Source of the DNA: Proteinivorax tanatarense
GTDB taxonomy: Bacteria; Bacillota; Proteinivoracia; Proteinivoracales; Proteinivoracaceae
Reading direction: 5' to 3'
Assembly (NCBI RefSeq): GCF_040267685.1
Contig: NZ_CP158367.1
Location: forward strand, 1,674,001 to 1,738,000
DNA: 64,000 bases
Part shown: positions 27,142 through 35,175 of the stretch, one piece after another
How positions within the stretch are numbered: the first letter of the stretch is position 1
Layout: each line of letters begins with the position of its first letter
Notes under the pieces: model-generated
The model's input: only the letters and a program-made list of their open reading frames with translations
What the model was told of the DNA's origin: nothing
Databases searched by the model: none
Program-made: the position numbers and the translations under genes

Positions 27142-27600
27142 TTACTGAACCGCTACATTTACTTCCACTATGAGACCATCTGCTTCCATTTCTATGCATA
27201 TGTAGTGCTTTGTATCGCTTCGCATTTTAAAATCTTCCCCATACATCAATGTGGGGGTGGAAATATTAGTTTCAATGCCACTGTTAGAAAATTGAGTGCT
27301 GGCGTTAGCAGTTAACATGTTACCCAGTTCAGACAGTGCACTTTGACTCATTTCATTTAATTCTTCAACAGGTGCCCCCATCATCATTTTTGAAGCAATT
27401 TTTTTGGCATTTTCTTCTGAAATATTATATATAACATTGCCTTTAACATCTCCCACAAGACCGATATTCATAGCAACGCCTTTTGTACTTATTGTGTTTG
27501 ATTTTAGTGATATATCGCCTCTCTTTACTTCAACAAAACCCAGTTGAGGCATAATTTCAGTAAAGGCTGTTATAAATGGATTTATAATTTTAGAATCCAT
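27142..27600 (-). CDS. cheX: Chemotaxis protein CheX (CheY-P phosphatase family)
   Basis: 152 residues from ATG 27600, with a run of Gs upstream as ribosome site. The CheC/CheX/FliY fold is recognisable by NPFITAFTEIMPQLGF at the start and SALSELGNMLTANAST near 87-102, which carries the catalytic ExxN pair (Glu and Asn in ELGN) used to dephosphorylate CheY-P. CheX usually acts as a dimer in the cytoplasm. The gene overlaps by 11 bp the end of a receiver-CheX fusion gene, so the two are translationally coupled and likely act on the same phosphorelay. Confidence 0.88.
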   Translation of the reverse strand: MDSKIINPFITAFTEIMPQLGFVEVKRGDISLKSNTISTKGVAMNIGLVGDVKGNVIYNISEENAKKIASKMMMGAPVEELNEMSQSALSELGNMLTANASTQFSNSGIETNISTPTLMYGEDFKMRSDTKHYICIEMEADGLIVEVNVAVQ

Positions 27601-28453
27601 CGTACCCCCCCTTTTTAAATCCAATATTCAGCTGAATTTCACCCAGCTCGGATTGGGCAACCATGCTTTTTACTTCAATATTTGCATTAGATATTGTTAA
27701 TGACTCGCCATGCAGCACCGTAGGCGGTGCCACTCTCAAATTATACAGCTTGTTTTTTCTATTAAGCATGGAACAGGCGTTTCCTCCAACTACATTGGCA
27801 AATTCACCCATAAAGGCCATTAATTCATCTTGGTTTTTTGTCTCCCGCTTTAGGACTAAATTAGATATCTTGTTTGCTGTTTGATGGGACATATCTAGTA
27901 CCATTCTTCCAGAACAACTCCCAATTATCCCTACAACGACAGTTACTCCTCTTGAATTCATCTCTAAAGATTTATTTTTACACTCTTCTACTTGTGGTAG
28001 TATTTTAGCAAATCTATTTAGATTATCTAAAAAACTTTCTTTAAAAACATTATAATAACTGTTTTGTAACTCCAAAAAGATTTTTTCATCTTGTAAAACC
28101 GAATCTATGGCTGTTTTAAGCTCTTCAGGGTCAACTGGCTTTTGTACAAATCCTGATATTTTATGCTGTTTTGCTTTTTTTTCAATTACATCATCTTTCA
28201 TAGAGCTTACCATAATAACTTTAATGTCATTATTTATTTTATGAATTTCTCTTGTACACTCAAAACCATCAGTTCCAGGTATTGTAATATCCATGGTCAC
28301 TAGGTCAGGTGTATTGTTTTTTACAAACTCAATGGTTTCTTCCAATGATCCTGCTTCACCTATTACCTGATGCCCCAAATCTGTAATTATGTCTCTTAAA
28401 ACACTTACTGAAAAAGGTGAATCATCTACAACTAATATTTTTGCTTTTTCCAT
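27590..28453 (-). CDS. Response regulator receiver fused to a CheX-like domain
   Basis: 287 residues. Residues 5-120 form a receiver domain: acidic pair in VVDDSPFS, phospho-acceptor Asp55 in LVTMDITIPG, Thr/Ser in VSSMKDD and Lys104 in FVQKPVD. Residues about 125-285 are a CheX-like domain with the ExxN phosphatase motif in GEFANVVGGNACSML. Such a chimera could be a phosphatase switched by its own phosphorylation, or a phosphate sink. It is followed by a free-standing cheX that overlaps it by 11 bp. AGGAGG precedes the ATG. The kinase partner is not adjacent; cheR lies about 16 kb away in this window. Confidence 0.9.
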   Translation of the reverse strand: MEKAKILVVDDSPFSVSVLRDIITDLGHQVIGEAGSLEETIEFVKNNTPDLVTMDITIPGTDGFECTREIHKINNDIKVIMVSSMKDDVIEKKAKQHKISGFVQKPVDPEELKTAIDSVLQDEKIFLELQNSYYNVFKESFLDNLNRFAKILPQVEECKNKSLEMNSRGVTVVVGIIGSCSGRMVLDMSHQTANKISNLVLKRETKNQDELMAFMGEFANVVGGNACSMLNRKNKLYNLRVAPPTVLHGESLTISNANIEVKSMVAQSELGEIQLNIGFKKGGYDGF

Positions 28454-30208: not shown

Positions 30209-30430
30209 AAAAACAAAGCCTTCCTCAAAAAGAGAGGAAGGCATAAAGGCGCTATTGTAGCGTGCACCTACCTCATACGTTTGGGCTTTGACACTATATG
30301 ACGTAGAGCTTGTGCTCAGCTGTGTTAAGCATGCCTTATTTCGGCAGTGCCTGTTCTACCCATTGGCGTCTCTGGACATTTCTGGGCAACAGCCTATGTT
30401 CATATAGTAGCCTCACCTAACGAGATACTA
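30209..30430 (-). ncRNA. M-box (Mg2+-sensing) riboswitch with terminator, upstream of mgtE
   Basis: On the minus strand the leader contains conserved M-box text in order: GTTAGGTGAGGCT, CAGGCTGT-like pairing, GCCCAGAAATGTCCAGAG, ACGCCAATGGGTAGA, AGGCACTGCCG, AATAAGGCATGCTTAACA and GGTGCACGCTACAATAG. An intrinsic terminator follows (GCCTTCCTC with GAGGAAGGC, 30218-30242, then T-rich). The M-box class is established as a Mg2+ sensor that favours termination when Mg2+ is plentiful; the aptamer ends just before the terminator as that model needs. Confidence 0.93.
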
Positions 30431-30475: not shown

Positions 30476-32989
30476 CTAGTTTGGCATATTTTTTTCTAGA
30501 GATTCCCCAGCAGGATCTATAAACCTTAAATAACGGTCATCAAATACAAGGGTGGCAATTCCAGTTTTACCAGTTCTATTTTTAGCAACTATTACTTCGG
30601 TGTCATTTTCTTTACCTTCAGCCTTAGCTTCTTCTAAAGCTTCTACACTTACCCTTGCATGCCTATATAAAAACACAATCATATCGGCAAATTCTTCAAT
30701 ATTACCAGATTCCCTTAGGTCTGAAACTTGAGGTCGCTTATCTTGCCTTTGGCTATAGTTTCGATTTATTTGAGAAAGAAGAATAATTGGCACATCCAGC
30801 TCTGAAGCTAGATTCCTAAGCTGTAGTACTATATCACCCACTGCTCGGGAGGTAGTTTGCGTCCCATTTTCAGGTATTGATATTGTCTGCAAGTAGTCAA
30901 TAACAACAAGACCTAAACCACCCATTTGAGCCTTCATACGACGTAGTCTTGCTCTTATTTGAGATACATTTATCCCTCTTTGGTCACTTACCCGTAAAGG
31001 CAAATCGTACAATAAGTTAAGTTTTTCTGTAAACTCATTAAATTGCTCATCAGACAAGTCACCTTGTTCGTACTTTTGCGAATCTATTCTAAGCTCTTGG
31101 ATTATCAATCTATCCATTACTTCTTCTGCACTCATCTCTAAACTAACAAAAGCTACCGGCAAGTTTCTCTTTAAGACATTGCGTACAAGGTTAAGACTAA
31201 ACGCTGTCTTACCTGTTGAAGTTGCTGCTGCTAGTATTATTAGGTGTTTATTTTTAAACCCATTAGTAAGGTCATCTAAAGACATATACCCTGTCATCAG
31301 TCCTCTCGGAGCCATGCCCTCTTTCCTTTTTACGTACTCTTCCAGTCTGTTAGCAAGAAGTTCGTTGGTATTAAAAATTGACTTATTGCTACCTCCCATA
31401 TCTGTAGCTTGAAATATTACTTCTTGAGCCTTGGATTGAAGAGAGTCTACACTTTCTTTTTCATTTGTACTCACTATTGTCTCAATTTCTTCAGCCGCTT
31501 TTATTAAGTTTCTCTTTGAATTTAACTCAAATAGAACATTAACAGCTTTTTGCAGTTCATCTGCTGGAGGAATATTATCAGTCAACTTTTTGTATAGTTC
31601 TTCTCCATTTTGCAGCGATTGATCTTTCATAATATCTAAATATAAGTTAAACTTTGTTACTTCTCCCGTTGATTGATATTGCTCGAAAACTTTTTGAAAA
31701 AGCAAACGGTTTGTGTTGTTGTAAAAAAGTTCAGGTGTTAACGTATCTGCGACTTCATCTAGCTTTTTAGGGTGCTCCAACAATATTCCTAGAACCTTTT
31801 GTTCAGCTAACAAATCGTTTGGTAATTCCTTAGAAAGACCTAAATGTTCCATTATTTGCAGCCTGGGTTTTCCCCAGCGCATTTCTAAATAATTTATTAA
31901 ATTTTCTAGTATCATTACATCATATACGTTGTTATTTACATAATCCTTAGCTACAATATACTCTTTTTCCGCAGAACTTTGGTCATTTAACAATTGCTTT
32001 AAAATTATATAGTCTGCACTTTTATGCTCTGCTAAAACTTCCCTTAAAGCCTGCTCTCCTTCTGCCATTAAAACATCGTTGGGGTCTTTATGTTCTGATG
32101 AAAGAGTGGCCACTCGAATATCTAGTTTAGAATCTACTTCATATAATGTTTTTTTGTTTTTCGCTACGCTTTTTAAACCAGTACTATCGTTATCAGGAAC
32201 AAGTACCACCGTCTTATCTTTTTTACACAGACGTGATATTATCTGAGCTTGCTCCGTAGTCATAGAATCTTTCATCACACCTACTACAGCTTTGATACCA
32301 CTTTGCCATAAGCTTATAACATCAAAGTATCCTTCAACCACGTAAAGACTATCATCTATATTTTTACGCGCATTATGAAGGTTATATAGAAGTTCAGCTT
32401 TGTTAAATACTTCGTCATTGCGGGAATTTTTGTATTTAGGTTCTACCCCGTCATCTAAAAATCGCCTACTGAACCCGACGACTTTTCCAAATCCATCGTG
32501 AATAGGGATGACTACAGAATTGTCAGAACTTGAATAGCCTAAGTCAAAGTCTTTAATGGTTTCAATAGAAAAACCACGCCCTTGTAAATACTTTTTCCCT
32601 GTGTTTTCAGTTTCAACTAACTGCTTTTGTGTGGTTTGTACCTGGCTTTGATTTTGCTTTACTCTAGCTCTTTTCTTTCTATACTTAGCTGGGTCTACAG
32701 ACTTAACCTCTATACCTGCTTTTTCTGATAAAAATTGCATAGCTTCGCTAAAGTCATAATTATAGTAATCTTTAACAAACTCTATAACACTTCCTCCTGC
32801 TTTACAGCCAAAGCAGTAAAAACTCTGGGTTTCTTCATAGACCGTTAGCGAAGGGGTATCTTTATCATCATGAAGTACACATTTCCCCTGGTGCAAATTC
32901 CCTTTACGTTGTAAATCTGTATACTCACCTATAAAATCAATTATATTAACTTTTTCTTTGACTGCGTTAATTGCTGATTCTATATCCAT
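30476..32989 (-). CDS. DnaG-type primase fused to DnaB-type replicative helicase
   Basis: 837 residues joining two normally separate replication enzymes. Residues 1-100: DnaG zinc-binding domain with the CHC2 ligands Cys37, His40, Cys59, Cys62. Residues about 130-320: primase catalytic core, with VVIPIHDGFGKVVGFSRR, PKYKNSRNDEVFNKAELLY, the TOPRIM Glu219 in VVEGYFDVISLW and the metal-binding DND at 266-268. Residues about 390-495: DnaB N-terminal domain. Residues about 560-835: RecA-like helicase motor with Walker A ATSTGKT ending at 595, SLEMS at 616, Walker B VVIDYLQ and ESGNIEEFADMIVFLYRH. All catalytic motifs look intact. It should prime and unwind DNA as one hexamer, analogous to phage T7 gp4 but built from complete bacterial parts. 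The upstream genes are a DnaI-like loader (17 bp away) and a DnaB/DnaD-like initiator. No phage genes adjoin. The start is ATG with GGGGT upstream. Confidence 0.92.
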   Translation of the reverse strand: MDIESAINAVKEKVNIIDFIGEYTDLQRKGNLHQGKCVLHDDKDTPSLTVYEETQSFYCFGCKAGGSVIEFVKDYYNYDFSEAMQFLSEKAGIEVKSVDPAKYRKKRARVKQNQSQVQTTQKQLVETENTGKKYLQGRGFSIETIKDFDLGYSSSDNSVVIPIHDGFGKVVGFSRRFLDDGVEPKYKNSRNDEVFNKAELLYNLHNARKNIDDSLYVVEGYFDVISLWQSGIKAVVGVMKDSMTTEQAQIISRLCKKDKTVVLVPDNDSTGLKSVAKNKKTLYEVDSKLDIRVATLSSEHKDPNDVLMAEGEQALREVLAEHKSADYIILKQLLNDQSSAEKEYIVAKDYVNNNVYDVMILENLINYLEMRWGKPRLQIMEHLGLSKELPNDLLAEQKVLGILLEHPKKLDEVADTLTPELFYNNTNRLLFQKVFEQYQSTGEVTKFNLYLDIMKDQSLQNGEELYKKLTDNIPPADELQKAVNVLFELNSKRNLIKAAEEIETIVSTNEKESVDSLQSKAQEVIFQATDMGGSNKSIFNTNELLANRLEEYVKRKEGMAPRGLMTGYMSLDDLTNGFKNKHLIILAAATSTGKTAFSLNLVRNVLKRNLPVAFVSLEMSAEEVMDRLIIQELRIDSQKYEQGDLSDEQFNEFTEKLNLLYDLPLRVSDQRGINVSQIRARLRRMKAQMGGLGLVVIDYLQTISIPENGTQTTSRAVGDIVLQLRNLASELDVPIILLSQINRNYSQRQDKRPQVSDLRESGNIEEFADMIVFLYRHARVSVEALEEAKAEGKENDTEVIVAKNRTGKTGIATLVFDDRYLRFIDPAGESLEKNMPN

Positions 32990-33006: not shown

Positions 33007-34008
33007 TTAGCTAGGACTTCTTAAATTTCCCGTAAGTTCTAATATTTTACTGGTTTCAATACATCTCCAGATAACTCTTTCACCGTAAAGGTCATTTCGT
33101 GCTCGTTCTTCTAACTCTGTTAGTGTAAAATTTGAAGTTACTATGGTGGGCAGTAAGTTACGATATCTAGTGTCTATTATTTGTCCTAAATGTTTTTGGG
33201 AAAATTCTGTATTTTTTTCCATACCTAAATCATCTAATAGCAGCACCGGAACCGTGGTTATTTTGCGTAAAATTTGTCCTTCTGTTTCCCCTTCTTCTTT
33301 ACCATATGTTTGACGAATCCGATCTAATAAATCAGCATAGACAATGTAGTTAACTGAAATTCCTTTTTGTAATAGATGATTAGCTATGCAACCTAACAAA
33401 TATGTTTTACCTCCCCCTGTCTTTCCATAAATATATAAACCATGGGGGAAAGTTTTACTGTCGTTGTAGTTTTGAATAAGCTTATTTAGGTATATCTTTG
33501 TTTCATTATACATGGTCAATGCATTATCTCGATCTTCTTTATTATAGAGGCTAAAATCTGCCTTATTAAAGGTAGCATTAACTAACTTAGGTGGTAGTCC
33601 TGCTGACTTTTGTTTTAGTATCATATTATTTTTTTTATTACATGTACATAGTTGTACTTGCTTTTCATTATAAATTTTTCCGCTATCTTTACATTTTGAG
33701 CACTGCCAATTAGGTTCTTTATAGTTAGTTGATATGGAGTATTTGGCTAAATACTGCTGCTTTTGATTTATTGCTTTGGAAAGCTCTGTCCTCATCTTAT
33801 CTAAATCTGCTACTTTTTCTCCTTTAAACTTTTTTGCCAAGTTATTGGCTATCTTACTTTGTAATATGCCAATTCTATCATCTAACTTTTCTAGTAAAGG
33901 GTGAGATTTATATAGGTTTTCTAGAAACTTTTTATGTTTTCTTTGGGCAACTAGTTTTGAAGAATAGTTATCATTATCAAGCAATTCTAGATAAGGATTT
34001 TTTTCCAT
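33007..34008 (-). CDS. dnaI: DnaI/DnaC-like helicase loader (AAA+ ATPase)
   Basis: 333 residues. The N-terminal half is helical and contains a zinc knuckle (CSKCKDSGKIYNEKQVQLCTC near 103-123), as in Bacillus DnaI. The AAA+ domain follows: Walker A YGKTGGGKT near 195, Walker B VLLLDDLG near 256, sensor-1 Asn in IVTSNFT and an arginine-finger region ERVIWRC. DnaI-type proteins load the hexameric helicase onto DNA during initiation and restart. The ribosome site AGGAGGT overlaps the stop codon of the preceding DnaB/DnaD-like gene. Its natural client here is presumably the fused primase-helicase encoded next. Confidence 0.9.
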   Translation of the reverse strand: MEKNPYLELLDNDNYSSKLVAQRKHKKFLENLYKSHPLLEKLDDRIGILQSKIANNLAKKFKGEKVADLDKMRTELSKAINQKQQYLAKYSISTNYKEPNWQCSKCKDSGKIYNEKQVQLCTCNKKNNMILKQKSAGLPPKLVNATFNKADFSLYNKEDRDNALTMYNETKIYLNKLIQNYNDSKTFPHGLYIYGKTGGGKTYLLGCIANHLLQKGISVNYIVYADLLDRIRQTYGKEEGETEGQILRKITTVPVLLLDDLGMEKNTEFSQKHLGQIIDTRYRNLLPTIVTSNFTLTELEERARNDLYGERVIWRCIETSKILELTGNLRSPS

Positions 34009-34010
34009 TT

Positions 34011-35108
34011 TTATTTACCTCCTTTATAACTAACTTTTTTCTTTTCTATCGCTTGCTCCAACTCTGATTTTGAGTGCCGCTGACTGTACTCCTTCCCTAT
34101 CTTTGGAGAGTCAGACTTTTTATCACTATAAAACAAATTTTGCTCGACATCTTTTTTGCTGGTAACCTTCGCTTTTAATAAGTTGTTCATCCATCTATTC
34201 ATGTAAGCTACGGTTGGAGAGCCTTTACCCTTGAAAAGCCCCTTACGTATAACTTGTTTTATGCCCTCTTTAATGATATCTTCTTTTAATCCTTCTCCAT
34301 TTTCAGGGCTAATCCAACTATTAACCATCGTACGTTCTTCAGGTGTTAACGAGTCATAGTCTTTATTTAGTTCTTTTTCCACCATGCGGTAAATTTGCCA
34401 GTTTCGTTTAAAAGCTTCATCTTTTGCGTATAAGTCTTTAAAGGTTTTAATACCCTTTAATTGCCAGTCTTTTACTATCTTATCTGTATAATTGCTAGGG
34501 CATCCTCTTATTCCAGAAAACTGAATTTTCTTTTTTGTTCTTCTTATAAGCTCTTCCATTAGCTCCACATCTTGGATTTGCTCAAACCAGTAATCAAATT
34601 TTTGCCGCAGCTCTTTGGTTCCTATAAAATTGCATTCTGACATAAATCTTGCCACCAGTTCATCTTCTTTTTGAGCAACAGTAAGATGATTGGTGTGTTG
34701 AGGCAAAGTTTGTTCATTTTTATCTATTTCATTTTTGGGGATTTCTTCAAAGTAGTCATCTAAGAGAGTGAAGAAGCGCTTTTTAGTTTCTATTTCAATT
34801 TGTTCATTATCCTTTACAAACTTAATAAACTGGTCAGTAGCCATGGGCTCTTTTAAAACCAGTTTATTTTCTTCCTTATCTAGGAGCTTGTATTTTTTTA
34901 ATAAATTTAAAGATGTTTTGCCAGTACTTTCACGCATTTGTAGCTGTAAATATAAATCCTTAATTGATATAGATTTTTTATTATCTATACAATGCTTTAA
35001 GTATATCCATAATGATATAGCTTCAAAACCAATCAGTGGTGCATATAATTCCAAAAGTTGATGTTTTACTATGGTATCTTTTTTTACATTTCCTTCTATA
35101 ATAAACAC
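34011..35108 (-). CDS. DnaB/DnaD-like primosome initiation protein
   Basis: About 365 residues. An N-terminal winged-helix-like region (VKHQLLELYAPLIGFEAISLW, typical of DnaD_N) is followed by an acidic linker and DnaD/DnaB2-type domains: one bears the YxxxIxxW motif (YTDKIVKDW near 215), another ends in a related PTVAYMNRWMNNL. In Bacillus, DnaD and DnaB proteins remodel origin DNA and recruit the DnaI-helicase complex. The start is uncertain: AGGAGG is followed after 12 nt by GTG 35108, which is chosen; the frame is open to a TTG at 35138 that lies before the ribosome site. It heads the replication cluster, two bases before the loader gene. Confidence 0.85.
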   Translation of the reverse strand: MFIIEGNVKKDTIVKHQLLELYAPLIGFEAISLWIYLKHCIDNKKSISIKDLYLQLQMRESTGKTSLNLLKKYKLLDKEENKLVLKEPMATDQFIKFVKDNEQIEIETKKRFFTLLDDYFEEIPKNEIDKNEQTLPQHTNHLTVAQKEDELVARFMSECNFIGTKELRQKFDYWFEQIQDVELMEELIRRTKKKIQFSGIRGCPSNYTDKIVKDWQLKGIKTFKDLYAKDEAFKRNWQIYRMVEKELNKDYDSLTPEERTMVNSWISPENGEGLKEDIIKEGIKQVIRKGLFKGKGSPTVAYMNRWMNNLLKAKVTSKKDVEQNLFYSDKKSDSPKIGKEYSQRHSKSELEQAIEKKKVSYKGGK

Positions 35109-35175
35109 TTTTAATCTATTCCTCCTTGATATAAGCAAGGTAAATTATACATCAAATATTGACATGTGAAAAGAG

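Follow-up and report, generated by a model that had tools for sequence, protein, structure and literature searches.

In bacteria, the primase DnaG and the helicase DnaB are near-universally separate proteins, and the transient contact between them is a standard explanation for the timing of Okazaki fragments. In E. coli, no more than three DnaG molecules are bound per DnaB hexamer, DnaG exchanges, and lower DnaG leads to longer Okazaki fragments; T7 gp4, by comparison, is a one-component system (PMC12593628). In T7 gp4 and the mitochondrial protein Twinkle, a zinc domain, a TOPRIM primase core and an SF4 helicase share one chain; both proteins lack a DnaB N-terminal domain (NTD) and act on phage or organelle genomes. 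Two further sets of one-component proteins are relevant here. The Selenomonas plasmids pSRC3 and pSRC4, together with viral-contig proteins (at our loci L236, L238, L239, L241, L242, L245, L246 and L248), encode a family of about 660-670 aa, with the TOPRIM motif PDND present in both plasmid members checked. Bacillus phage vB_BpsS-140 encodes an 857-aa "DnaG" (AZS49250.1; L043:5989-8562) with the domain order CHC2, primase core, TOPRIM, DnaB_N, DnaB_C.

Here, we describe a primase-helicase fusion gene in Proteinivorax tanatarense, found in the 64,000-nucleotide stretch of DNA that was analysed (the window). Like T7 gp4 and Twinkle it joins a zinc domain, a TOPRIM primase core and a helicase on one chain, and like T7 gp4 its primase half has a short RNA-polymerase domain (RPD). 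Unlike them, it carries a complete cellular DnaB, with NTD and a RecA-like motor of cellular DnaB rather than gp4 type, and it lies beside DnaI-like and DnaD-like loaders in a bacterial genome that has PolC and DnaE and whose chromosome has no other primosome. We conclude that this protein is very likely both the sole chromosomal primase and the sole replicative helicase of its class, with a phage-type primase placed on a host DnaB. In the open literature (subscription papers lay outside the search), no bacterial lineage was found described as having only a fused primase-helicase or as having lost dnaG.

Domain content and surroundings of the fused gene

Features of the fused gene and its immediate surroundings, in window positions
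Feature	Position	Strand	Basis
Primase-helicase fusion gene, 837 aa	30476..32989	(-)	ATG start, uninterrupted frame
CHC2 zinc-binding domain, residues 5-97 (C37, H40, C59, C62)	32699..32977	(-)	Pfam PF01807
Primase RNA-polymerase domain with TOPRIM, residues 129-325 (E219, D266-N267-D268, D302)	32015..32605	(-)	Pfam, alignment, fold model
Primase core C-terminal helices, residues 326-386	31832..32014	(-)	LINK profile; helices in model
DnaB N-terminal domain, residues 388-500	31490..31828	(-)	Pfam PF00772 at 389-485
DnaB RecA-like motor, residues 561-825 (Walker A 590-595, Walker B around D698)	30515..31309	(-)	Pfam PF03796, invariant motifs
DnaI/DnaC-like AAA+ helicase loader, first neighbour upstream of the fusion, 17-bp gap	33007..34008	(-)	
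DnaB_2/DnaD-like primosome initiation protein	34011..35138	(-)	Pfam PF07261
Intrinsic-terminator-like hairpin 3' of the fusion gene, 9-bp stem, T-rich tail	30218..30242	(-)	Consensus match only

Five Pfam domains are found along the protein, all scoring far above cut-off: CHC2 at residues 5-97, DNAG_N at 158-208 (covering only profile positions 78-128), Toprim at 215-307, DnaB_N at 389-485 and DnaB_C at 563-824. PDB profile matches to DnaB span residues 391-831. In an alignment of 12 homologous fusions, the zinc ligands C37, H40, C59 and C62, the residues E219 and D266/N267/D268, and Walker A T590-K594 are invariant in all 12, as is D302. The zinc site, E219, the DND triplet and Walker A are thus as the initial annotation had read them. 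That annotation had also described a complete DnaG joined to a complete DnaB, of which the fusion itself and the DnaB half are borne out, with an NTD and a RecA motor bearing Walker A and B and the DnaB signature motifs (TIGR00665 score of 341.4 bits, below the curated equivalog cut-off of 385.25). The primase half shares with bacterial DnaG the zinc domain with CHCC ligands (12 of 12), the primase core fold and the catalytic TOPRIM acids (E, DxD, D), but lacks the full N-terminal subdomain of the RPD and the C-terminal helicase-binding domain, and its score of 265.3 bits against the NCBIfam dnaG model (TIGR01391) falls below the curated cut-off of 283.6. Because both the helicase-binding domain and a 37-38-residue RPD segment present in 27 of 27 chromosomal-type DnaGs are missing, this half is, judged by its sequence, not a complete DnaG. 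Residues 326-386 pass directly into the DnaB NTD, and no intein-like insertion is seen in the alignment.

Purifying selection acts on all parts of the fusion, which differs from its nearest relative by a dN of 0.054 with saturated dS. That a sequencing error had joined two frames is excluded by this value and by the presence of the same colinear fusion in all 13 class genomes at 49-93% identity. Conservation is among the lowest at the primase-helicase junction and in the DnaB NTD, and the ratio of NTD to RecA identity is 0.57 within the fused clade versus 0.66-0.81 in unfused groups. In other bacteria the DnaB NTD is where DnaG docks; the faster divergence of the fused NTD fits the loss of this docking role, and the part that the NTD plays in a fused ring may therefore differ.

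A model of the primase half (pLDDT 90) contains the complete primase core with its C-terminal helices and matches the DnaG cores 5guj and 4edg; its matches to T7 gp4 and Twinkle are weaker. The predicted primase fold is intact. The full-length model, built with seven sequences, reaches a pLDDT of 63, and the relative placing of the halves is therefore not taken from it.

The window operon runs from the dnaB_2/DnaD-like gene through the dnaI-like gene to the fusion, all in the same direction. This operon is conserved in synteny across the class, and the dnaI-like and dnaB_2-like genes keep their position in sister families as well, with the window DnaI-like loader 36-69% identical to its counterparts. 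The other neighbours have housekeeping functions (among them asnS, mgtE, a CwlD-like amidase gene, deoC and surE). Elsewhere in the window (27142-28453, minus strand), a gene for a CheX-type CheY-P phosphatase of 160 aa lies beside one for a 287-aa fused CheY-CheX protein (CheY at residues 6-119, CheX at 136-277).

Primase and helicase genes across the class

The window genome is a single closed contig of 3.09 Mb, 98.4% complete, and contains one match to CHC2 (PF01807) and one full match to DnaB_C (PF03796), both in the fusion gene. A second PF03796 match is partial (29 bits, profile positions 2-91) and falls in a 456-aa frame that is probably RadA. Separate copies had been expected, if anywhere, with dnaG near rpoD and dnaB near rplI, and both loci lack them: dgt (HD domain) is followed after about 345 bp by rpoD, and the order around rplI is DUF2232 gene, rplI, M20 peptidase. 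A search for an archaeal-type (AEP) primase, PF01896, as a second primase found none. The genome encodes both PolC and DnaE; apart from the primosome, its fork thus resembles the usual one of Bacillota.

This pattern holds across the class, sampled here as 13 genomes from families f1 to f4 (three single-contig, ten drafts). With the fusion as query, each of the 13 returns exactly one colinear full-length place at 49-93% identity, except that in the draft G010 the match comes in two pieces flanking an assembly gap. An apparent triple fusion of DnaI, primase and helicase in that same genome (1260 aa, L051:4867-8649) was rejected as an assembly artefact, its frame crossing two runs of N. In every class genome the fusion is the only DnaG-like and the only DnaB-family match. 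A full-length DnaG from the sister-family genome G232 likewise finds only the fusion, in two blocks covering approximately DnaG residues 6-165 and 194-381, and no match to the DnaG C-terminal domain is found with this query in the 13 genomes.

The fusion also appears specific to the class. Across 398 phylum genomes, fusion-query scores among the matches listed were 948-1620 bits within the class and at most 545 bits elsewhere, the latter covering the DnaB part only; none of the 385 genomes sampled outside the class has a fusion among these matches. A scan of 84,980 species with two short peptide patterns recovered seven full-length fusions, all from class members. The suggestions in the initial annotation that separate dnaG and dnaB genes might be missing and that the fusion might be confined to a clade are both upheld by these comparisons.

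Origin of the two halves

The helicase half has a clear bacterial relative. In trees it is sister to the DnaB of sister families (support 99.6/100). The protein of those families is encoded in the same dnaB_2-like/dnaI-like operon but stands unfused, at about 465 aa, and their dnaG is found at the dgt-rpoD locus. Trees that place the helicase half with the RecA domains of phage fusions or plasmids are rejected (AU p 0.0006-0.002). An origin of this half from the vB_BpsS-140 fusion was discarded because the DnaB half of that protein does not group with the class (AU p 0.0006); the phage protein is 26% identical to the class fusion. The vB_BpsS-140 fusion is apparently an independent event, in a phage.

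The primase half points elsewhere. The initial annotation had proposed that the docking domain of DnaG was replaced here by a short covalent link; the domain is indeed absent, yet the primase half looks phage-type rather than like a trimmed host DnaG. It groups with the pSRC3/pSRC4 and viral-contig one-component primase-helicases (97.9/98, and 98.3/98 with more viral sequences), which are its closest relatives, helical linker segment included, although their RecA motor shows no close relationship to the fusion's DnaB half. Alternatively, the lineage may have fused its own DnaG to DnaB after that DnaG had lost its docking domain, the phage-like look of the primase half being a product of fast evolution after the fusion and of long-branch attraction. 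We regard this as unlikely, while noting that local matches to host DnaGs show 30-42% identity in the zinc and core segments, that the overall fold is nearest to DnaG cores and better matched to them than to T7 gp4, and that the best PHROG of the primase half is a general DnaG family. Identity to the phage-type family is 28-31% and the phage-family branch is long, so an artefact of the tree model is possible; the branch leading to the class is, however, of ordinary length in the primase trees. Forcing the primase half to group with host or sister DnaGs is rejected by the AU test (p 0.004 and 0.002 on a reduced taxon set; p 1e-5, 4e-6 and 0.002 with viral relatives added). The fusion and the phage one-component primases lack exactly the same 37-38 residues of the RPD. 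A primase/helicase family, phrog_239, is matched by the fusion and not by a host DnaG. The TOPRIM motif PDND and a downstream KDxND are common to the fusion and the phage-type family, whereas 27 host DnaGs have YD/FD-x-D and DPD(E/S/D) at these places, and outside the class the LINK profile (residues 326-386) matches nothing but the one-component proteins of phages and plasmids. Most likely, then, a phage-type primase was grafted onto the host DnaB. In the pSRC3/pSRC4-type proteins the RecA motor directly follows the helical segment, whereas in the fusion a complete DnaB including the NTD follows it, and a domain swap at the junction of helical segment and DnaB is the simplest reading of the sequences. 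A transfer in the reverse direction, by which phages would have acquired a bacterial primase, is the less likely course, since the tree, with its unproven root, has other phage primases branching between host DnaGs and this group.

Two other readings concern what the gene does rather than where it came from. As the initial annotation recognised, fusions of this kind could be accessory enzymes of a prophage or plasmid, with a normal dnaG and dnaB missed by our searches, and mobile-element examples do exist in vB_BpsS-140 and in pSRC3 and pSRC4. This is extremely improbable for the class: no integrase or phage genes were found near the fusion, its neighbours are housekeeping genes in class-wide conserved synteny, the match is single in three single-contig and ten draft genomes, and in almost every other genome of the phylum the same searches do recover dnaG and dnaB as separate genes. 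It is also rather improbable that the fusion is a precursor from which internal initiation or proteolysis yields a separate helicase, and perhaps a separate primase, giving mixed or separate primosome subunits as with T7 gp4A and gp4B. The short form of T7 gp4, a helicase-only product, does arise from an internal start (PMC12593628; also annotated), and the poor conservation of the fusion's junction and NTD is in keeping with this reading, but a simple scan found no internal in-frame start that is conserved and has a ribosome site, and the alignment is free of intein-like insertions.

A putative one-component primosome and its evolution

Were the fusion the only primosome, as we favour, its working can be sketched from the protein families involved. 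We infer a hexamer of the DnaB type. The DnaI-like and DnaD-like proteins encoded next to the fusion would load it, and it would travel 5'->3' along the lagging-strand template. Up to six tethered primase heads would sit above the DnaB N-terminal tier of the ring and receive the emerging single strand, priming in cis. The zinc domain of one head would probably help an adjacent core, and the primers made would then pass to PolC/DnaE. A fixed 1:1 ratio of primase to helicase would follow from the fused gene, and a step of DnaG recruitment or release would not exist. Taken as a whole, we judge it reasonably probable that a free-living class replicates its chromosome with a chimera of a phage primase and its own DnaB after complete loss of dnaG, six primases to six helicase subunits and with no DnaG cycle to time Okazaki fragments.

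A class with no primase or helicase other than a covalent fusion of the two is a natural experiment on whether the DnaG-DnaB contact is needed. It also bears on the release of the loader when the primase stays attached, and on the evolutionary interconversion of one- and two-component primosomes. The fusion looks like a phage replication module within a cellular core replisome, comparable to Twinkle in mitochondria; unlike Twinkle, it belongs to a free-living bacterium and the module is joined to the host's own helicase.

Gene orders in relatives suggest how such a protein may have arisen. Five sister-family genomes (G158, G278, G232, G362 and G091) have a dnaB_2-like gene, a dnaI-like gene and an unfused dnaB (about 465 aa); the three checked for dnaG (G232, G158 and G091) all carry it, at about 600 aa, in the interval from dgt to rpoD. 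More distant genomes, G027 and G036 among them, have a dnaB_2-like gene followed by dnaB, without dnaI. These orders imply a stepwise path in which dnaB joined the dnaB_2-dnaI operon, a primase was fused on, and dnaG was lost. Under this scenario, an operon dnaB_2(DnaD-like)-dnaI-dnaB would already have been in place in the ancestor, with dnaG still a gene of its own at the dgt-rpoD locus; the donor would have been a phage or plasmid one-component primase-helicase with zinc domain, primase core and helical linker, lacking a DnaB NTD; recombination would have joined the donor's primase part, with the reading frame kept, onto the N-terminal end of the whole host DnaB; and the host dnaG would have been lost once the fusion had arisen.

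Two observations on unfused DnaB genes were made along the way. The sister-family genome G278 has two DnaB-family matches (C13:32134-33477 and C4:89480-90838), one of the operon type and the other scoring like the ordinary type. In G147 (C1:3550237-3551805), the DnaB match begins unusually early on the profile (302-828) within a 548-aa frame, perhaps reflecting an N-terminal extension.
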